Source: an uncultured Schlesneria sp. (lineage in GTDB: Bacteria; Planctomycetota; Planctomycetia; Planctomycetales; Planctomycetaceae). From it: a stretch of DNA of 64,000 nt. The DNA is taken from NCBI GenBank assembly GCA_903904835.1, contig CAIVEI010000045.1:1-64000 (forward strand), given 5' to 3'. Positions 3,109-26,339 of this stretch are shown here, one piece after another. Each line of letters opens with the position of its first letter. The first letter of the stretch is position 1. The notes below the pieces were generated by a model. The model was given only the letters and a program-made list of their open reading frames with translations. It searched no databases and was not told where the DNA came from. A program made the position numbers and the translations under genes.

Positions 3109-6100
3109 ATGAACCCACTGTTTGACAGTCGCTATTGTTGTGGTTGTTATCAAGCGGTTCGGTCTATTCGTTCCAAGCGAACGACGATAACGTTTCTTCG
3201 TTCTTCGATTGCGGGCGTCGTGCTCGGTTTCTTATCAGTGGCATCGGCTAGCGGACAGACGATTAACGTTGGAAGCTCAACCGACCTGTTCAATGCCATT
3301 CAGACAATCGACAATAATCCTGGTACCAATTACACGTTGAATGTGATCAACAGTTTTACAATGAGCCAGTCGGTTTTGGATTTCAAAAACACGTCGACCA
3401 TAACACTGTCGGGGAACTCGAATACGATTGATGGAGCAAATCTCTTTCAGCCGCTGGTCATTGATGGCGGTACGGTGACATTGCAAAATCTGAATCTTGT
3501 GAATACGGGGCAGCCGGTCACCGTCAACAACGGCGGGACGTTGATTGATACGACCGGCAGTCTTCAAGGACCCGTCATCAACAACTACGTGGTGGGATTC
3601 AATTTTCTGACCGGTGCGACTTACGGCGGTAACATGTCCGGAAGCGGGGGTGTTACGGTCAACGGTGCGGGGCCGGTGACGTTTTCCGGCACGAACAGCT
3701 ATTCCGGCGGAACATTTGTGGCGCAGGGCAGTACGCTGATTGGTACGACAAACAGCCTGCAGGGAACATTCATCGACCTGGGTGCGATTCAATTCAATCA
3801 GGCCACGAGCGGAACATATGCCGGGTTGATTGAAGGGAACGGTAGTCTTCGGATTAGCGGGGGTGCCGCGATTACCTTGACGGGCATGAATACATACCAG
3901 GGGGGCACGGTCGTTGACTCTGGCAGCAAATTGATTGGTGCGACCAGCAGTCTGCAAGGGGCGATTAACGATAACGGAGCTGTCCAATTCAACCAGGTAA
4001 CGAGCGGCAGTTATGGTGGTGTATTGTCAGGTACAGGCTCAGTTGAGATCAGTGGCAGTGGGGCAGTGACCTTCACGGGCCAGAATACCTACACGGGTGG
4101 CACGATTGTAGATCAGGGCAGCACGCTAATCGGCAACTCTGCCAGTCTTCAAGGACTGATCGCCAATAGCGGTGCCATTCAATTCAATCAAGTCGCAGCA
4201 GGTGCGTTTACGGGAAAAATCTCTGGCTCTGGCAGTGTCGAAATCAGCGGTGTGACACCGGTCTCGTTCACGGGACTTAACACTTATACGGGTGGAACGT
4301 TGGTCGACAGCGGCAGCACATTGATTCTGACCGCAACCAGCCTGCAAGGCAGGGTCACTGATAATGGAACCGTTCAGTTTTCTCAAAGTGGTGCCAGCGA
4401 GTTCTACGGCAATATTTCGGGTTCTGGCAAGGTGGAGGTTCTCAGCAACGCGACGGTGACGCTCGGAAGCATGTCGGGCGCAAATACCTATAACGGAGGG
4501 ACCACGGTCGACGCTGGGGGGACTTTGATCGGCAACACTTATAGTCTTCAAGGATCAATTACTGACAATGGAATCGTGAGATTTGACAGCAGCCTGGACC
4601 GTCTGTATGCAATCGCGATAACGTACCCCCAACAACCCGTTGTGCCAGTTGATCCGACGATCTACTCGGGCCCTGTCGGCAACTCGTGGGGGACTTCCAG
4701 TGTCTACAGCGGAGACATTTCTGGAACGGGAAAAGTCGAAATCAGTGGTGGAGATACTGTGTCATTCACTGGTTTTAACAGCTATTCCGGTGGGACGACG
4801 GTTGACAGTGGATCCAGCCTGACCGGTTCGACATTCAGCCTGCAGGGGAACATCGTCAACAATGGCTTCCTGCAGTTCAATAACGGCAACCTTCTGACGG
4901 TTACCCAACCGATCAGTTTCACACCAGGGACCCTGGTTTCTGTACCTGATCTATTGACTGCTAATCCTCAACTTACGATGTCGCAGGCCGCGTATAGCGG
5001 CAATATCTCGGGCACAGGTGGTGTCGATATCGGTGGCACGGTCCCGATTATTTTTTTAGGAACGAATACCTACACGGGCGGAACGATGGTTGAAAGTCGC
5101 GCCGCATTAATCGGTACCACGAACAGTGTGCAGGGAAATTTCCTCAATAACGGAGTCGTTGAGTTCGATCAGGGAATCGCGGGAACCTATTCGGGCAACA
5201 TGACCGGTAGCGGTAGTGTTTCGATCGCTGGTACCGGGCCTGTGACGTTCTCGGGCGTGAATTCTTATGCCGGTGGAACGACGATCAACGGTGGCAGTAC
5301 CTTAATCGGAACGACGCGAAGCCTGCAAGGAACGATTTTTGACAGCGGGACTGTCCAGTTCAATCAGACCACAAGTGGTACCTATGCCGGGGTCATCTCG
5401 GGAACAGGTGGGGTCGAGATCGGTGGTGTCGGTGCAGTGACATTCTCTGGAGCCAACACTTACACCGGCGGAACAAAGATCGACAACGACAGTACCTTCA
5501 TCATTGCAGGGTCCATTACCAGTAATGTTGACGTCAATAACGGCGGTACACTGATGGGTACCGGCTTGATCCAGGGAAACACGTCGGTAAATGCAGGCGG
5601 GACAATTGCACCTGGAACGGTGGCAACTCCGCTGAACATCAAGGGCAACTTTGTCCAAGGGGCGGGAAGCACGTACGCGGTCGAAGTGAAGTCGACTGGC
5701 AGCGATAAAATCGCTGTGGATGGGACGGCTCAAATCAATAATGCCACGAAACTGAATCTGAATCTCGATCCCGGCACACTGACCGTCGGTAAGCATTACG
5801 AAATCCTCAGTGCAACAAGTGGCCTGTCCGGGCAGTATGCTCTTGTCCAACCAACCACAACGACCCAAAACATTGTCTTCACCGAACAGTACAATCCGAA
5901 CAATCTTCAGGTGATTGTCAATTCGAACCTGGCTCAGTACGTACAGTCCTCAAATCTTGTGGCGGTTGCATCGGTCCTCGACAGGACCAGTGGTACAGCC
6001 ACCGGTGACTATGCAAATGCACTAACTCAACTGACAACGCTGGGACCCGGTCAGTTGTCAGGTGCGTTAAATCAACTTTCAGGTGATATCTATCCAAGTC

Positions 6101-7164
6101 TGGGCACGGTCGAGCTACAAACGACGACGGTTCAGATGCAATTGTTAAGTAACCGTCTCGCCGGATTGGCTTGGACAAGGGGATCATTGCCAAGCGTTGC
6201 ACAAAGGACAAATGGTATTCGGCTTGTTTCAAGCCAGTCGAGTAACTCGCCTCCTGCTGACGGATCGACGACTGGGGCCGGTAGTCCTACGGTTCAATCA
6301 CCCCTCTTTTCCAGTGACGGAAGTGTTTCGCAATCGTGGACGACATGGGCCCAGGGTTACGGTCTTGGCGGCAGTTTTGCCAATGATGGAAACGCTGGTG
6401 GCCTCAATTATCGGCTGGGGGGAACTCTGTTTGGTGTGGAACGATGGTTAGGCGAGAATACGATGATCGGCGTGCTCGGTGGATATGCAGCGACATCGGT
6501 CGGCAACCGCCAGGACAGTTCCAGCGCACAGATCAGTGCTTATCAAGTCGGTTTGTACGAACTTCACCGCCGCGACAATCTGTATCTCTCGAACGTCGAT
6601 GCCTTCGGAAATAACTCATACAACGTTTCACGCCCACTGACAATCGGTAACATTCAACAAACAGCCAGTGCCAGCAGCAGCGGAAACCAATGGTCTCATT
6701 ACACAGAAGGTGGGATGAACTTTGATTTCGATGAACTTCGGCTGCAACCGTTTGCTGGCCTGCAGTACTTGTACCTGGATCAGAAAGGTTACAACGAGTC
6801 CGGCGCTGGCGCCCTTGATCTGATAACGAGCAGCCAAATCATTAACAGTGTGCGAACCGGCTTCGGTGGCCGTTTGTATCACGAAACCACCTGGGGCGGG
6901 ATTCTTGTCGTTCCTTCGCTCGCGGCCCGTTACCAGCACGAATGGGGAAACGGAACCAATCTGGTCACGTCGTCGTTTTCAGGGGCACCGACCGTTCAGT
7001 TTGTGACGGCGGGTAACCACACGGGGCGTGATTTCGGAATGTTCACCCTCGGCGCGACGGCATACATCACCAATTCTTTCAGCCTTTATGGAATGGTTGA
7101 TGCACAGGTCGCAACAGGCTACTCCGCATTGATCGGATCGGGTGGACTTCAGTATACGTGGTGA
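3109..7164 (+). CDS. Autotransporter (type Va secretion) with repeated passenger
   Basis: The 1351-residue protein has an extended N-terminal signal region (basic stretch, hydrophobic core to about residue 49, cleavage likely after SASG). A long beta-helix passenger follows, made of 'autotransporter-associated beta strand' repeats. Residues from about 1075 to the end form an autotransporter beta-barrel domain: it begins near SWTTWAQGYG, has alternating amphipathic strands, and ends in an aromatic residue (QYTW), as expected for outer-membrane barrels recognised by BamA. The passenger is probably displayed on or released from the cell surface; its ligand or activity is unknown. The start is the first ATG after an in-frame stop at 3100-3102; the ribosome site is weak. 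Confidence 0.9.
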   Translation: MNPLFDSRYCCGCYQAVRSIRSKRTTITFLRSSIAGVVLGFLSVASASGQTINVGSSTDLFNAIQTIDNNPGTNYTLNVINSFTMSQSVLDFKNTSTITLSGNSNTIDGANLFQPLVIDGGTVTLQNLNLVNTGQPVTVNNGGTLIDTTGSLQGPVINNYVVGFNFLTGATYGGNMSGSGGVTVNGAGPVTFSGTNSYSGGTFVAQGSTLIGTTNSLQGTFIDLGAIQFNQATSGTYAGLIEGNGSLRISGGAAITLTGMNTYQGGTVVDSGSKLIGATSSLQGAINDNGAVQFNQVTSGSYGGVLSGTGSVEISGSGAVTFTGQNTYTGGTIVDQGSTLIGNSASLQGLIANSGAIQFNQVAAGAFTGKISGSGSVEISGVTPVSFTGLNTYTGGTLVDSGSTLILTATSLQGRVTDNGTVQFSQSGASEFYGNISGSGKVEVLSNATVTLGSMSGANTYNGGTTVDAGGTLIGNTYSLQGSITDNGIVRFDSSLDRLYAIAITYPQQPVVPVDPTIYSGPVGNSWGTSSVYSGDISGTGKVEISGGDTVSFTGFNSYSGGTTVDSGSSLTGSTFSLQGNIVNNGFLQFNNGNLLTVTQPISFTPGTLVSVPDLLTANPQLTMSQAAYSGNISGTGGVDIGGTVPIIFLGTNTYTGGTMVESRAALIGTTNSVQGNFLNNGVVEFDQGIAGTYSGNMTGSGSVSIAGTGPVTFSGVNSYAGGTTINGGSTLIGTTRSLQGTIFDSGTVQFNQTTSGTYAGVISGTGGVEIGGVGAVTFSGANTYTGGTKIDNDSTFIIAGSITSNVDVNNGGTLMGTGLIQGNTSVNAGGTIAPGTVATPLNIKGNFVQGAGSTYAVEVKSTGSDKIAVDGTAQINNATKLNLNLDPGTLTVGKHYEILSATSGLSGQYALVQPTTTTQNIVFTEQYNPNNLQVIVNSNLAQYVQSSNLVAVASVLDRTSGTATGDYANALTQLTTLGPGQLSGALNQLSGDIYPSLGTVELQTTTVQMQLLSNRLAGLAWTRGSLPSVAQRTNGIRLVSSQSSNSPPADGSTTGAGSPTVQSPLFSSDGSVSQSWTTWAQGYGLGGSFANDGNAGGLNYRLGGTLFGVERWLGENTMIGVLGGYAATSVGNRQDSSSAQISAYQVGLYELHRRDNLYLSNVDAFGNNSYNVSRPLTIGNIQQTASASSSGNQWSHYTEGGMNFDFDELRLQPFAGLQYLYLDQKGYNESGAGALDLITSSQIINSVRTGFGGRLYHETTWGGILVVPSLAARYQHEWGNGTNLVTSSFSGAPTVQFVTAGNHTGRDFGMFTLGATAYITNSFSLYGMVDAQVATGYSALIGSGGLQYTW
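3649..5560 (+). repeat. Passenger repeats of the autotransporter (about nine units)
   Basis: Nine diverged units of roughly 55-85 codons recur. Each is built as a GSG-VEISG strand, then VTFTG-NTYTGGT, then a VDSGSTLIG strand, then SLQG-I-DNG-VQFNQ. The TYxGG and SLQG cores are nearly invariant and unit length varies through insertions, such as the longer units near 4600 and 4900. This is beta-solenoid architecture inside a coding sequence, not a CRISPR or mobile repeat. Confidence 0.85.
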
Positions 7165-7559: not shown

Positions 7560-9032
7560 GTGCGCAGGGCGAAATCATTAGCGTTTCCTGTGGCATTGTT
7601 CGTTTGCACGTTCCTTGCGGCTTGTTATAGCGGTCAGATCGCTGAATTTGTCGATCGGGATGGCACTGCTGGGCAATTTATCAGTCTCGGATTGCAGACG
7701 GCAGCGTGGATCACGGCTGCCATTGCTGTCATTCAACTTGTCCAGGTGTTCGTCTGGGAGCAACTGGTTGCTGAATATCTTGGCGCACCTGTTCCTCGAC
7801 TGATTCGGGACATGGTTGCCGGCATCATCATGATGATTGCCATCGCGGGGGTATTGACCGGAGTTTTCCGAAAAGACATTAGCGGGATACTTGCCACATC
7901 CGGTCTGCTCGGAATTGTGCTTGGGTTTTCGTTGCAGACGATTATCCTCGACGTGTTCACTGGGTTGGCAATCCATTTCGACAGGCCGTTCTCGACCGGC
8001 GACTGGATCCGCTTGTACGGCGAAATGGAGGGGATGGATGCCAAAGTTTTAGAAATTAACTGGCGTACGACTCGTCTACTGACCGAAACGAACGAACTGG
8101 TCATCGTACCGAACAGCATTCTCGGCAAGATGATTTTTACGAACTACAACCAGCCTGATCCTCCCACGCGTATACAGGTTGCCGTTCGCCTTGATTCTGC
8201 TGTTCCTGTCGAGCGATGCCGTCATGTGCTGCTCGCTGCGGCGAAGGGTTCTGAAGGAATACTGGAAGAACCTGCCCCGGTCGTTCTGTTGGAAGAAATC
8301 AGCGAAGTGGGCGCGAAATATATCGTACGCTTCTGGATCAAGCCGTGGAATCCCCTCTCGCCAACCACTGCATCAGGTCTGGTTCTGGCGAATGTTTTAC
8401 AGAACCTGCAGTTCGCGGGAATTTCTCAAGGTATTCCGAAGTTGATTAATTTCGATTCCCGGACTGCGCCAAGTTGCACAGACTTTGGTCACCAGTTCGA
8501 TCGAATCAACGTCTTGCGTAAGATCTCGCTCTTTAGGTCGCTAAATGACGACGAATTTGAGTCGCTGGCGAAATCGTCATCGACTCAGACATTTGTGCAA
8601 GGAGAGACACTGATTCGTCAGGGTGACGCAGGCGATTCGATGTATGTGCTTCTTGAAGGACTATTAGAAGTCTTTCGAACCGGGGAAGGAAATAAAGAGA
8701 CGCGCGTGGCCCAGATTCAGACGGGCCGTTTTTTTGGGGAAATGTCGTTGTTAACGGGCGAGCCACGTTCCGCCACGATTCGGGCGGCCCTGAACTCGAT
8801 CGTCCTGACAATCCAAAAGTCAGCCATGGTCAGCCTGCTGGAAAATCGTCCGGGACTGGTTGATCATCTCAGTCGATCACTCGCCGAACGAAGACTGGCC
8901 GATAAGGCTCGGGAATTGAGTTCGACAAATTCACTGCAAGAGCAATCGGATTCCCTGACGGATCAATTCAAAAAGAAAATTCTCGGATTCTTCCGCGTCG
9001 TTTTCGACGGCGGAAGCAAGTTGCAGGCGTAA
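7560..9032 (+). CDS. Cyclic-nucleotide-gated MscS-family mechanosensitive channel
   Basis: The 490-residue inner-membrane protein has hydrophobic helices near residues 8-25, 48-68, 85-105 and 108-138. The last is a glycine-rich pore helix (SGILATSGLLGIVLGFSLQ), followed by the MscS beta domain (about 140-280). A complete cyclic-nucleotide-binding domain spans about 320-445, with the phosphate-binding cassette GRFFGEMSLLTG...RSATIRA, including the Glu and Arg that hold the cyclic phosphate. This is the architecture of the bacterial cyclic-nucleotide-gated (bCNG) branch of MscS, in which ligand binding modulates ion flow. The GTG start is set by a stop 27 bases upstream and a GGAAGG site 9 bases before it. 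It converges on the cyclase-phosphodiesterase operon to the right, which probably controls its ligand. Confidence 0.92.
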   Translation: MRRAKSLAFPVALFVCTFLAACYSGQIAEFVDRDGTAGQFISLGLQTAAWITAAIAVIQLVQVFVWEQLVAEYLGAPVPRLIRDMVAGIIMMIAIAGVLTGVFRKDISGILATSGLLGIVLGFSLQTIILDVFTGLAIHFDRPFSTGDWIRLYGEMEGMDAKVLEINWRTTRLLTETNELVIVPNSILGKMIFTNYNQPDPPTRIQVAVRLDSAVPVERCRHVLLAAAKGSEGILEEPAPVVLLEEISEVGAKYIVRFWIKPWNPLSPTTASGLVLANVLQNLQFAGISQGIPKLINFDSRTAPSCTDFGHQFDRINVLRKISLFRSLNDDEFESLAKSSSTQTFVQGETLIRQGDAGDSMYVLLEGLLEVFRTGEGNKETRVAQIQTGRFFGEMSLLTGEPRSATIRAALNSIVLTIQKSAMVSLLENRPGLVDHLSRSLAERRLADKARELSSTNSLQEQSDSLTDQFKKKILGFFRVVFDGGSKLQA

Positions 9033-9268
9033 TCAGGTTAGTCTGCCCGTAACACCAACGCCGTGAGATTTTGCGGCGGGAAAACAGGGGTAATTTGAAT
9101 AGGTGTCGTGGCGACTCTGGAGCTTCAAGCTCTCCACTGACACAAGGTCGATGGAGAGGCTTTTCTGTTACAGCGTTCCGCGATGACTGCTGTTTTCTTC
9201 AAGAATAATCCTTCACCGCGTTGCCGTAACACCTGCCGCGCGATCCCCGCCTGTCAGTTGCGACAAAG

Positions 9269-9298
9269 GACTCGCAACGTTGTGACCCGTTGCGAGTC
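9269..9298. terminator. Hairpin between convergent genes
   Basis: A perfect 11-base stem (GACTCGCAACG / CGTTGCGAGTC) with an 8-base loop lies between the 3' ends of the channel gene and the cyclase gene. There is no long T run, so it may act as an inefficient or factor-assisted two-way terminator. A second small palindrome (GAGCTT-C-AAGCTC) lies near 9120. Confidence 0.5.
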
Positions 9299-9319
9299 AC
9301 AACGAGAATTCACGGTCGT

Positions 9320-11179
9320 TTATTTGCTGGCAAGTGAAAATGCACCATCCCAGTCCTGCGGTGGCGCGTTGCCGAGTTCATTCATGTGATTGAGCAGGAA
9401 CGCTTTCGGACCGTCGCCGTCGGGAAGTTGTTTGAGCAGCGACATGGCATTCGACCAATCGCCACGGATGACGGCCTCAACGGCGGATTCGTGGTTGGCA
9501 ATCATTTCTGCCGTGATCTCTGGCATCTCTTCCAGCGAAGGCAGAAGTCCGTAAACAGTGATCGGTGTATCCATCCCTTTCGGTCGGACGCGAGCAAGGC
9601 GACGGAGCCGACCTTCGGAGGGATTCAAATACTTTTTTGCATACTCGGCGGTTGTTTCGTCCACGCAGATGGGAACCGCAAATTGCTTGGTCAAGCCCTC
9701 AAGGCGAGATCCCTGGTTCACGACTGGCCCAAACACGCCGACTTTCGATTGCTGATTCGTGCCGATCTGGCCAGCCAATGCGCGACCATGGGCGATCCCC
9801 ATTCCCACCGAAAAGCCGTATAGCAGGCTATCGTTTTGAATGACTCCCTGTTGAAAGGCTTTATAAATTGCCAGGGCCGCGCGGCAGGCAGGGACTGGTC
9901 CCTCTTTCAGTTCAATCGGCCATCCCCAGAAACCAAGTGCGGCGTCACCCTGAAAGTCTGCAATTGCTCCGTCACGCTCGACGATGCCGCCCGCCATGAC
10001 TCCGAGAGCTGCACTGACACTTCGCAGCAACGTTAACAGGTCGCTTTGAAGCGCTTCGGCCTTCTTGGAGAATCCGCGCACATCGCAGAATAGAACAGAG
10101 ATCTCGCGTTCGCTGGGACTGAGGGTTTCTTTTGAATTGCCCGCAGTCAATCCTTCAATAACCTTCGGCGAGAAGAAGCTGCTCAGTTGGGTCTTCTGCT
10201 CTTGAAGCATTCGGACGTGACGGATCGACCCGATAAACTGCGCAACCAGTTGCGTGAATCGAAGGTCTCCTAACAGATCAGCTTCCGTGACCATCAATCC
10301 GCCATTTGTCGCCCCCTGGCCGGAAACGTACAGACACCAGCCCTTGCTCGATTCGGCCTTAATCGGCGCACAAAAGGCCCAGCCCAATCCTTCGCTCATT
10401 GTAAACTGAGATTCGTCTGAACTTTCGAAGACGTGAATGACGCTCGATTGCGTTTGCAGACATTTGAGAACCATGCGCCGACTGGGAACAAACCGCCCTT
10501 CAAAGCGTTCACGAGTCTCGACCCGCATGGAAAGCGGCTTGGGAAACGATTGGATCTGGGAAACATTCGGTGGTAATTGTGTTTCGTCGAAATGCGCCAC
10601 GGCGACGGCCAATGAGCTTGGAATCGCCTCGATCAGCAGGCGGGACAACATCGCCCCCAAGTCGTCGTCCGAGTGCGACTCGGCAATCCTGTCGGGCAAT
10701 TGTTCGAGCAGTTCCATTTGCCGTTCGCCGTTGCCAAAGGCGACTTTTCTCAATTCTGCCGAAGAATAGGCCCGTTCCGAGCCTTCGCGGTTTTCTTCTT
10801 CACAGAACTCATAATTCTCGAAGTGTCGTTGCGTTTCGATTTCTGGTTCCGGACTTGTGGACGTCCGCGCGATTAGCGAACTGACGTGAAAAATCGTTGA
10901 GCCAATCTGGAACCATTCGTCGACCCCGAGAACGGCTTCACGAACCGGCTTTCCCCCGAACACGATCGGGTTCCTGGCTTGTTCGAGGCACTGCACACGC
11001 AGCTTACCATTGCCCCAGGCGACGTCGGCATGTTCGCGAGAGATCATCTGGTCCCAGGGGATTTCCCAGCCCAATTTGGCGGCGCGACCGATCCGGACCG
11101 TTTCCTGGTCTTCGAGAATCTTCAACAATCTCTGGGACGCATCCTGACCAGAAATTGTGATGTTTACTGCGGAGGCCAT
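9320..11179 (-). CDS. FHA-GAF-type class III nucleotidyl cyclase
   Basis: The 619-residue cytosolic protein has an N-terminal FHA domain (about 1-105, with RIGRAAKLGWEIPWDQMISREH), a middle GAF-like sensor region (about 140-320), and a class III cyclase domain (about 350-535). The two metal-binding Asp are present (FCDVRGF and FQGD), as are the Asn and Arg of the catalytic pair (VVNQGSRLEG). The residues that normally select adenine are changed: Lys to Asp before FQGD and Asp to Pro in VFGPVVN, so the product base is uncertain. FHA suggests control by phospho-threonine. I chose ATG 11179, which has AAGGA 10 bases upstream; a TTG at 11188 is too close to that site. It is second in an operon with the phosphodiesterase, 37 bases apart. 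Confidence 0.88.
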   Translation of the reverse strand: MASAVNITISGQDASQRLLKILEDQETVRIGRAAKLGWEIPWDQMISREHADVAWGNGKLRVQCLEQARNPIVFGGKPVREAVLGVDEWFQIGSTIFHVSSLIARTSTSPEPEIETQRHFENYEFCEEENREGSERAYSSAELRKVAFGNGERQMELLEQLPDRIAESHSDDDLGAMLSRLLIEAIPSSLAVAVAHFDETQLPPNVSQIQSFPKPLSMRVETRERFEGRFVPSRRMVLKCLQTQSSVIHVFESSDESQFTMSEGLGWAFCAPIKAESSKGWCLYVSGQGATNGGLMVTEADLLGDLRFTQLVAQFIGSIRHVRMLQEQKTQLSSFFSPKVIEGLTAGNSKETLSPSEREISVLFCDVRGFSKKAEALQSDLLTLLRSVSAALGVMAGGIVERDGAIADFQGDAALGFWGWPIELKEGPVPACRAALAIYKAFQQGVIQNDSLLYGFSVGMGIAHGRALAGQIGTNQQSKVGVFGPVVNQGSRLEGLTKQFAVPICVDETTAEYAKKYLNPSEGRLRRLARVRPKGMDTPITVYGLLPSLEEMPEITAEMIANHESAVEAVIRGDWSNAMSLLKQLPDGDGPKAFLLNHMNELGNAPPQDWDGAFSLASK

Positions 11180-11216
11180 ACTGATCAAATCCTTTAACCA
11201 TTAACCTTATCGGGAA

Positions 11217-11975
11217 CTAAAACGAATATGTCTGATTCGGCTGGCTGATCGTCAGCTTACCAAGATTCAGTTGTTTCAACTCGCTGACCACGTCGGCGTA
11301 AAAGGCTGGTTTGATGTGCACCGCTACGACAGGAATCGACCGACCAGCCTTCGTATATTCTTCGAGAAACAGCGATGGTGTCAGGTGTTTGGCTTTTTCT
11401 GCCAGCCAACCCATCGAATTCGGAAAAGCAGCTTCCAGAAAGACTGCTTTGACGCGCGGGTTATTGCGTACATAATCCCAGATGGCATCAGTTTGAGCCG
11501 TATCGCTGACAAACGCGACAGCCGTTGAACCGTCATCAACAATAAACCCGAAGGTAGGGATGACATGATTCAGGGCGATTGGCGTTACTGTCACGCCGTC
11601 GAATTGAATTGGCTTGCCGTCTTCCAGAATGACAAATCGGATAAACGGAGATTCCTCACGCGATAAACGAAGCACGTCAGGCCAGACAACGTCATTGAAA
11701 AAATGTGCCATGAGGTTGTCGACCACGTGCTGCGACGCATAAATCGTTGGACAATCTGGACCAGGCTGATAGACATTGTCGATAAAAATCGGCAATGACG
11801 CGACATGATCCAAGTGTGCATGTGAGATCAAGATCGATCGAACGGATTTTTGCCGGTCCAGGCTGGCAAAGCCGATACTTCCAGCATCAATCACGAGTGA
11901 GCCGTTCACAACATATGACGCAGCAAACTGATGAGCGGCACCTTCGACCGACGATGATAAAACGGTAACGTCCAC
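11217..11975 (-). CDS. Class II 3',5'-cyclic-nucleotide phosphodiesterase (metallo-beta-lactamase fold)
   Basis: The 252-residue protein carries the class II PDE signature HxHLDH at residues 52-57 (SHAHLDHVAS), the metal ligands of the metallo-beta-lactamase fold. It also has the family-typical FNDVVWPDVLRL stretch, a later HVIPTFGF segment, and the FVSDTA and FLEAAFPN motifs seen in yeast PDE1 and Vibrio CpdP relatives. It should hydrolyse cAMP or cGMP to the 5' nucleotide. The start is GTG with AAGGG five bases upstream; no signal peptide is evident, so it is likely cytosolic. It is the first gene of an operon whose second gene is the cyclase, so synthesis and removal of the messenger are co-transcribed. 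Confidence 0.86.
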   Translation of the reverse strand: MDVTVLSSSVEGAAHQFAASYVVNGSLVIDAGSIGFASLDRQKSVRSILISHAHLDHVASLPIFIDNVYQPGPDCPTIYASQHVVDNLMAHFFNDVVWPDVLRLSREESPFIRFVILEDGKPIQFDGVTVTPIALNHVIPTFGFIVDDGSTAVAFVSDTAQTDAIWDYVRNNPRVKAVFLEAAFPNSMGWLAEKAKHLTPSLFLEEYTKAGRSIPVVAVHIKPAFYADVVSELKQLNLGKLTISQPNQTYSF

Positions 11976-25283: not shown

Positions 25284-26339
25284 TTAATTCCGCTCGTTTA
25301 ATCGCTGACGGATGTAATCAGCCCGCGCCACATTGCGCTCGACCGTCTCCAGCTTTTCGTGACGGATTTTTTGAAGGTGGGCTGGCTGCGTATGGATGAA
25401 CAGTTCGTTGATCGTTGGAATTTCCAGATCATCGATCAAGCCAAGATTTATCCCAAGTCGGACGCTGGAAAGCAGGTCCATTGTCTCTTCCGAACTAATC
25501 GTGCGAGCCGTTTTCAGGATTCCATACGCGCGTGAGACTTGGTCGTGCAAACCGCGACGGTTTTCGCTGACGAGGGCCTGACGGACGCGACGTTCGTACG
25601 ACACGATATTTGGTACAACATCCTGGATCGTTCGAATCAGGTGCTCTTCGCTTTTACCGAGAGTGACCTGATTCGAGATCTGGTAGAAGTCTCCCATGGC
25701 CTGACTTCCTTCGCCATATAACCCTCGCACGGCGAGGTTAATCTTCTGCAGTGCCTGAAAGACCTTCTGGATCTCTTTTGTGTGAACGAGTGCGGGAAGG
25801 TGCATCAGCACGCTGACGCGAATCCCCGTGCCACAATTCGTGGGGCAAGCGGTTAAGTAGCCCAGTTGGTCGTTAAATGCGTAAGTCCGGTCGGCCTCAA
25901 TCGCGTCATCAATCGCGTCAATTTCCAGCCAGCAATCGTCGAGTGCGAAACCACTGCGTAACACCTGAATCCGCAGATGATCTTCTTCATTGATCATCAC
26001 GCTGACGTTTTCCTCGTCACTGATACCCACACCGCGTTGGCCATGTGTTTCGGAGTGCTCGCGGCTGATCAATTGTCGTTCGACAAGCATTTGTCGGTCG
26101 ATCGTATCCAGTGAACTGACCGAGATATAGTTTAGTTTTCGTCCACCTGGATTCTTGGCGATCTGACGTCTTAGCAGTTCCTCGATCTCCGCTCGAGCAC
26201 GGTCGTCGGCACGGCTGGGAAACGAAAAATCTGCCAGATTCCGTGCCAGCCGAATCCGACTCGACATGACAATATCCGAATCAGGTCCTGTTGCTTTCAA
26301 CCACTCGCCGCTCGTGCGTGTTAAGGACTCGAGGTCCAC
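25284..26339 (-). CDS. mcsB: Protein-arginine kinase McsB
   Basis: The 351-residue protein belongs to the guanido-kinase fold family: SSRIRLARNLADFSFP near the N terminus and YLTACPTNCGTGIRVSVLMHLPAL around the catalytic Cys165. The rest follows McsB, including MGDFYQISNQVTLG and the SSVRLGINLGLIDDLEI segment. McsB phosphorylates arginines, marking proteins for ClpC-ClpP degradation in Bacillus. The GTG start has GAAGGAA upstream. mcsA lies directly upstream in the same direction, as in Firmicutes; ctsR and clpC, which complete the Firmicute operon, are not next to it here. Confidence 0.93.
   Translation of the reverse strand: MDLESLTRTSGEWLKATGPDSDIVMSSRIRLARNLADFSFPSRADDRARAEIEELLRRQIAKNPGGRKLNYISVSSLDTIDRQMLVERQLISREHSETHGQRGVGISDEENVSVMINEEDHLRIQVLRSGFALDDCWLEIDAIDDAIEADRTYAFNDQLGYLTACPTNCGTGIRVSVLMHLPALVHTKEIQKVFQALQKINLAVRGLYGEGSQAMGDFYQISNQVTLGKSEEHLIRTIQDVVPNIVSYERRVRQALVSENRRGLHDQVSRAYGILKTARTISSEETMDLLSSVRLGINLGLIDDLEIPTINELFIHTQPAHLQKIRHEKLETVERNVARADYIRQRLNERN

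Follow-up and report, generated by a model that had tools for sequence, protein, structure and literature searches.

Introduction

Bacterial cyclic nucleotide-gated (bCNG) channels, which Caldwell in 2010 and Malcolm in 2012 are said to have described, reportedly belong to the MscS superfamily and carry a C-terminal cyclic nucleotide-binding (CNB) domain. We know of few clear physiological inputs to CNB-bearing MscS channels. In Pycsar systems, a PycC cyclase makes cCMP or cUMP and is paired with a killing effector. An excerpt of PMC4284465 describes Cya2 of Synechocystis as a class III guanylyl cyclase, and an excerpt of PMC9117128 counts yeast PDE1, B. subtilis YhfI and phage Apyc1 among the class II cyclic-nucleotide phosphodiesterases (PDEs). 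Here we analyse a locus in a 64,000-nucleotide stretch of DNA from an uncultured Schlesneria sp. of the Planctomycetota (hereafter the window; assembly GCA_903904835.1, contig CAIVEI010000045.1, positions 1 to 64,000), in which genes for an MscS-type channel with a CNB domain, a class II PDE and a class III nucleotidyl cyclase with an FHA domain adjoin one another. A first-pass annotation, made from the letters alone, had called this a self-contained cyclic-nucleotide cassette. Since genes of these kinds recur together in relatives in different mixes, we consider it reasonably likely that the locus is a chromosomal make-break-respond circuit, in which the cyclase would synthesise a cyclic nucleotide, the PDE would end the signal and the channel would respond.

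Results

Identity of the three genes

The genome comprises 8.18 Mb in 211 contigs, of which contig 45 carries the window. Relatives of the three proteins were collected from a sample of the order (120 genomes) and a sample of the class, and all their counts refer to the matches listed; labels beginning with G and L are our handles for genomes and loci, and the trees were built quickly, with SH-aLRT as their sole support measure. The three open reading frames (ORFs) were found at the coordinates and on the strands first assigned to them (Table 1), with the channel gene convergent on the other two and 287 bp in between. The PDE gene stands upstream of the cyclase gene on the same strand, with 28 bp from its stop codon to the TTG start of the cyclase, and the two probably form an operon with the PDE first. 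Promoter and terminator scans gave counts no higher than the shuffle level.

Table 1. Coordinates of the channel, cyclase and PDE genes and their domains in the window
Feature	Position	Strand	Support
MscS-type channel with CNB domain at residues 343-429	7560..9032	+	PF00924, PF21082 and PF00027 over cut-off
CNB domain of the channel	8586..8846	+	PF00027, 84.7 bits (genome search)
Class III nucleotidyl cyclase with FHA domain and middle region in front, 622 aa; starts at TTG, other ATG at 11179	9320..11188	-	PF00211
FHA domain of the cyclase	10865..11167	-	Family profile against PDB sequences; PF00498 in relatives
Conserved middle region of the cyclase, called GAF at first pass and not recognised as GAF	10175..10756	-	
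Class II cyclic-nucleotide PDE, metallo-beta-lactamase fold, 252 aa	11217..11975	-	PDEase_II

The channel scored 56.5 bits against MS_channel_2nd (PF00924), 23.3 bits against MS_channel_3rd (PF21082) and 80.7 bits against cNMP_binding (PF00027), and its PDB matches included YnaI and MscS over the pore part and PKG, PKA and mll3241 over the CNB domain. The CNB cassette, FGEMSLLTGEPRSAT, retains both the Glu and the Arg that we take to contact the ribose and the phosphate, bearing out the earlier description of this domain as intact. With an MscS pore and beta domain followed by a C-terminal CNB domain that carries this Glu and Arg, the protein has the make-up of a bCNG channel. An uncultured Schlesneria (L156) has a channel 89% identical to it. 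The CNB Arg is intact in all of the best 80 channel relatives in GTDB, a figure biased towards that outcome because these loci were picked for their likeness to the window channel and the patterns used to pick them included the CNB cassette. At one locus (L204, 5886-9260), a single ORF joins a periplasmic ligand-binding-like domain, called by eye, to an MscS-CNB channel.

The PDE scored 50.6 bits against PDEase_II (PF02112; cut-off 23.7) and carries the metal motif HxHxDH as HAHLDH at residues 52-57; residues H52, H54, D56, H57, H137, D158 and H220 are invariant in 19 of 19 relatives. This motif and profile match together argue for the class II PDE proposed at first pass, and the protein is the only PF02112 match found in a search of the genome. 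That it is instead an RNase Z- or PhnP-like hydrolase of the same fold, which would leave the locus with no degradation arm, seems to us improbable: the NCBIfam models for PhnP and RNase Z fell far under cut-off (as did NCBIfam's own cyclic-nucleotide PDE model, at 38.9 of 400 bits) while PDEase_II passed, yeast PDE1 ranked first by sequence and in both structure comparisons and has FND..WPD in common with the window protein, and a cyclase stands beside the PDE at 22 of the 38 loci described below. In six genomes (L101 and five other loci; G029, G062, G092, G096, G114, G119), a family 28 glycosyltransferase gene, MurG-like on account of its two Pfam domains, overlaps the PDE gene or lies within 64 bp of it on the same strand.

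The cyclase scored 29.1 bits against Guanylate_cyc (PF00211; cut-off 21.9), a family also matched by 24 of 24 aligned relatives, in all of which D369, D411, D415, N491 and R495 are invariant. D369 and D415 are presumably the metal-binding Asp pair of class III cyclases, and N491 and R495 the transition-state Asn and Arg, so the residues expected of this class are all in place. In a cyclase outside these 24 relatives (G091:C422), Thr replaces the catalytic Asn. Four tandem FHA-cyclase genes at L142 (G064:C139, 6046-14521), and three more weak cyclase matches behind a channel at L244 (G139), are local cyclase expansions.

The case for the FHA domain comes from the family: the window copy scored 17.6 bits, under the PF00498 cut-off of 20.7, whereas 22 of 24 relatives matched PF00498, and a profile of the N-terminal region gave 26 matches to PDB sequences at E<=0.01 (best 3gqs, E=2.3e-8), GarA, OdhI and further chains that we take to be FHA proteins among them. 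Residues G34, R35, S50, R51 and H53, presumably the G-R and S-R-x-H residues that bind phospho-threonine, are invariant in 24 of 24 relatives, which fits a predicted phospho-threonine input. The GAF domain that the first-pass annotation had placed in the middle region was not borne out. No GAF family was matched in a Pfam scan of 24 cyclase members, and a profile of residues 145-338 run against PDB sequences at E<=10 found a single, unrelated chain (E=0.58). An hhalign comparison of the middle region with two cyclases, one of which has a sub-threshold GAF_2 match, gave a probability of 22.7%; at full length the figure was 99.9% and the alignment spans the middle region, but it also contains the catalytic domain. 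An AF2 model of the whole cyclase (three-row alignment) had a pLDDT of 36.7 and was unusable. We leave the middle region without an assignment.

The base-specifying residues of the cyclase are unusual, a point on which the first-pass annotation is silent. Adenylyl cyclases have a canonical Lys/Asp(Thr) pair of base-contact residues. This pair is absent from the 41 FHA-cyclases listed: all have Asp at the Lys position, and the second base contact is Gly in 35 and Thr in 6; in the window cyclase it is Gly, at N491-7. The structure 2w01, which we take to be Cya2, has Glu/Gly at the positions where the window cyclase has Asp/Gly. Because the adenine-reading Lys is replaced by an invariant Asp with a Gly partner, close to the Glu/Gly of Cya2, our guess is that the predicted messenger is cGMP. 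The same circuit might instead run on cAMP or another cyclic nucleotide, which we hold possible if somewhat unlikely. Asp differs from Glu, we know of no assayed cyclase with the Asp/Gly pair, and the CNB domain of mll3241 (MlotiK1), which prefers cAMP, is among the channel matches; in favour of cGMP, all 41 FHA-cyclases listed are acidic at the Lys position, and the Gly partner is as in 2w01.

A search of the genome for PF00211 returned at least five cyclases besides that of the window (the listing does not contain the window's own cyclase, so that five is a lower bound), and ten PF00027 matches were found, the channel's included. Because of these other cyclases and CNB proteins, "self-contained" overstates the case, and the messenger would probably not be private to the locus.

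A cyclase beside a CNB membrane protein is also the layout of Pycsar, and the PADLOC PycC model scored 48.3 bits on the cyclase, with PycTIR-type matches on the channel. These matches are, however, confined to the shared cyclase and CNB stretches, the effector here is an MscS channel, the unit has its own PDE, the locus lies in stable synteny, and a match to the window cyclase was listed in 120 of 120 order-sample genomes. We therefore regard a Pycsar-like anti-phage unit as very improbable.

Pairwise links among relatives

The order sample held at least 47 strong PDE matches (E<1e-30), of which 38 were examined as loci and nine were not. Domain neighbours were read on all ORFs; the clustering of neighbours used an earlier gene list that lacks genes under antisense ORFs. 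At 22 of the 38 loci, the PDE gene had an FHA-cyclase gene no more than 250 bp away on its own strand; the PDE was the upstream gene in 7 of these and the downstream gene in 15. At least six changes of the PDE/cyclase arrangement were required on a tree of the cyclases, which had 42 rows, 40 of them scored. A further two of the 42 FHA-cyclases have a PDE 7.4 kb away. One genome outside the order (G123) has a different cyclase 824 bp from the PDE on the same strand.

CNB genes were likewise found near the PDE. A CNB gene lay within 6 kb at 11 of the 38 loci, four of them window orthologs, as compared with at most about 0.7 expected by chance; this expectation is our own arithmetic from 4-11 PF00027 matches per genome in 14 genomes that were chosen for the link. 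The CNB genes at these 11 loci, which amount to about five independent cases, encode the MscS channel (4), an ABC exporter (1), an ABC ATPase (2), a three-CNB/4Fe-4S protein (3) and a short CNB protein whose cassette is poor (1). Of the 20 PDE loci examined outside the order, two had a CNB gene within 6 kb. At L112, L126 and L127 (G098, G097 and G043), the neighbours of the PDE are multihaem-cytochrome-like genes and a gene whose product gave three CNB matches and several 4Fe-4S ones, and the FHA-cyclase of G098 comes from a different part of the tree than those of G097 and G043. One of the two loci outside the order is L274 (G133:C37, 9705-12370): there the gene for a pyridine-nucleotide oxidoreductase that ends in a CNB domain is divergent to the PDE gene, with 120 bp between them.

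The third link is that between cyclase and channel. In the order sample, 7 of the 11 full-length MscS-CNB channel genes had a class III cyclase gene within 1 kb (two fragments being left out), and in the class sample 17 of 22 did. Three of these 17 loci are from Schlesneria and 12 from a single clade; the class-sample channels with no near cyclase are those of G258 and G123, two in G218 and a contig-edge fragment in G048. The cyclases beside channels vary, with FHA in the window, REC in G116, CHASE2 in G215 and a sub-threshold GAF_2 match in G174, and cyclase-neighboured channels are spread over several clades of the channel tree. In three further genomes (L205, L213 and, in G218, L236), a PDE gene follows the channel gene by 26 to 93 bp; no cyclase domain was found in the stretches examined there, and upstream at L213 there is an FHA-like match. 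Of the best 80 GTDB channel relatives, 5 have a cyclase in the stretch examined and 6 a match to the PDE family, which is weaker in three of the six.

Once pairwise links are counted, linkage exceeds chance. Cyclase, PDE and CNB effector genes thus appear to assort together in planctomycetes, a pattern better supported than the trio itself. The split set of cyclase, PDE and CNB channel that the first-pass annotation had reported is indeed present, its degradation arm being the sole PF02112 match in the genome.

Joint loss of cyclase and CNB residues in one clade

We compared the active sites of 18 neighbouring cyclase-channel pairs. Three window orthologs and L159, L196 and L197 were omitted; the last three are looser neighbours, 1.3 to about 6 kb from the cyclase, and in L159 the cyclase motifs and the CNB Arg look intact. 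In six of six pairs with an intact cyclase (the window, G116, G052, L233, G174 and G215; the L233 cyclase was called CHASE2 by eye), the CNB Arg is retained. The other 12 operons (L135, L240-L242 and L244-L251; from G030, G175, G151 twice, G231, G139, G214, G262, G199, G239, G216 and G157) have lost the second metal Asp of the cyclase in 12 of 12 cases and the first in 10 of 12, and have also lost the phosphate-position Arg of the CNB domain in 12 of 12, with Asp or Glu at the next position in every case. Three of them (G139, G216 and G157) have an Arg two residues ahead of the lost one, so that a shifted Arg is possible there. In all 12, the two genes share a strand with the cyclase immediately upstream of the channel, HAMP was found in four of four cyclases scanned, with dCache matches below cut-off in three of these, and the 12 channels form one clade (SH-aLRT 100).

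Joint decay of cyclase and CNB domain is what would be expected of a functional unit, and the decayed operons look like receptor-channel units gated without a nucleotide.

A local, inherited trio and the points against a circuit

A close channel was found in 4 of 15 genomes of the genus, and in all four the cyclase and the PDE adjoin it; a fifth channel match in the genus, in G052, is 30% identical. All four genomes also keep the flanking genes, which encode an autotransporter on one side and an SplB-like radical SAM protein on the other. Because these flanking genes are common to all four, the trio may simply have been inherited together, and its presence in the four genomes is shared descent, not independent evidence. 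We had considered that selection keeps the trio together, and dropped this claim after the synteny check, since the flanks are shared too. The first-pass annotation would have counted its reading refuted had the neighbourhood been conserved in no relative; it is conserved in these four genomes and the reading is not refuted, yet as part of a shared syntenic block this proves little. The trio is a local, inherited arrangement.

Several observations weigh against reading the locus as a circuit. No more than four species, all close to one another, were found to carry the exact trio, which lies inside a longer syntenic block that runs from the autotransporter to the SplB-like gene, and the channel is convergent and not co-transcribed with the pair. 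The closest cyclases outside that block (G113, G114 and G092; 60-68% identity) have neither a PDE nor a CNB gene in the stretches examined, which for G113 and G092 extend less than 1.5 kb on one side. In the stretches examined, 18 of the 42 FHA-cyclases have no PDE, and 70 of the best 80 GTDB channel relatives have neither a cyclase nor a PDE-family match; an FHA-cyclase was near none of the 20 PDE loci outside the order; and no CNB gene lies in the examined flanks of 14 of the 22 PDE-cyclase pairs, some of these flanks reaching contig ends. The co-degeneration described above was probably one event, since the 12 channels form one clade. Finally, we tried to read the nucleotide from the residue after the CNB Arg and rejected it as a guide. 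This residue is Ser in the four orthologs and Ser, Thr, Arg, Asn, Val or others in the best 80 channel relatives, and a cyclase of the adenylyl K/D type neighbours a channel with Thr there; given this variety and this pairing the position is uninformative and does not separate cAMP from cGMP.

Part of this evidence would suit another explanation, namely that the PDE and cyclase are a true signalling pair with a target elsewhere and that the channel is a neighbour by descent which hears other cyclases. The confinement of the trio to a single syntenic block, in 4 of the 15 genomes of the genus, the pairs with no CNB gene in their flanks, the convergent transcription of the channel, and the other cyclases and CNB proteins of the genome would all follow from it. 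Against it, CNB genes near PDE loci are well above expectation, related channels recur beside cyclases, and in the sister genome G093 the PDE-cyclase pair adjoins not the channel but an ABC exporter, another effector that carries a CNB domain. On balance, we think a target elsewhere rather unlikely and keep to the make-break-respond circuit.

Two other genes of the window were identified in passing. The autotransporter (3109-7164), here in a planctomycete, has PATR repeats and a beta-domain (167.9 bits) and stands beside the cassette in four genomes, and an ATP:guanido phosphotransferase catalytic domain (228 bits) lies at 25287-26339.

Discussion

Predicted signalling route

We propose that the FHA domain of the cyclase would dock on a threonine-phosphorylated partner and so couple Ser/Thr-kinase signalling to messenger synthesis. 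The class III cyclase would then make a cyclic nucleotide, most likely cGMP, which the PDE, whose fold and motifs are those of its class, would keep low so as to terminate the signal. The messenger would bind the CNB domain behind the MscS part and shift its gating, and the channel may in this way be controlled by a phospho-signal, either by itself or added to membrane tension. The PDE-cyclase pair may itself be a reusable module, found in relatives near other CNB effectors (an ABC exporter, an ABC ATPase, an iron-sulphur protein).

A broader proposal, which we put forward only tentatively and consider rather doubtful, is that a class III cyclase and an MscS-CNB channel make up a planctomycete receptor-to-channel unit with two modes. 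One would work through a cGMP messenger, as predicted for the window with its phospho-threonine-controlled cyclase and dedicated PDE, a pair that would have been re-plugged onto ABC transporters and iron-sulphur proteins; the other would work by nucleotide-free contact, between a HAMP membrane receptor with a dead cyclase domain and a channel whose CNB domain has no phosphate Arg and an acidic residue beside that position.

The locus offers a testable route by which Ser/Thr kinase signalling would affect the membrane permeability of bacteria, with cGMP as the candidate messenger. The different mixes in planctomycetes, together with the co-decayed clade, provide a natural experiment on channel gating by a diffusible nucleotide as against direct contact.

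Comparison with known systems

Judged by title and the opening of the abstract, no account of cyclase-MscS-CNB or cyclase-PDE-channel loci, or of the joint assortment of such genes in planctomycetes, was recognised in the literature; PMC4886424, on cyclase-like proteins and neighbourhoods, was outside that check. The locus is a new combination of known parts. Like bCNG channels, the window channel has an MscS pore, a beta domain and a C-terminal CNB domain with the ribose Glu and phosphate Arg, but a separate FHA-cyclase and a PDE adjoin it, and its gating is predicted from sequence. The catalytic domain of the cyclase resembles that of Cya2, with an acidic residue in place of the Lys and Gly as the second base contact; it differs in having Asp for Glu and an added FHA input domain, and its activity is a prediction. 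The PDE shares the metallo-beta-lactamase fold and HxHxDH motif of class II enzymes, with PDE1 as its top sequence and fold match, but has 252 aa as compared with 369 aa in PDE1 and stands in a probable operon with a cyclase. Pycsar is alike in its adjacent cyclase and CNB membrane effector, whereas the window has an MscS effector, its own PDE and a syntenic chromosomal locus. The other planctomycete cyclase-channel loci (G116, G052, G174, G030, G175, G151 and others) differ in having other cyclase types and no PDE alongside, with both sites degenerate in one clade, and they share with the window a class III cyclase directly beside an MscS-CNB channel.

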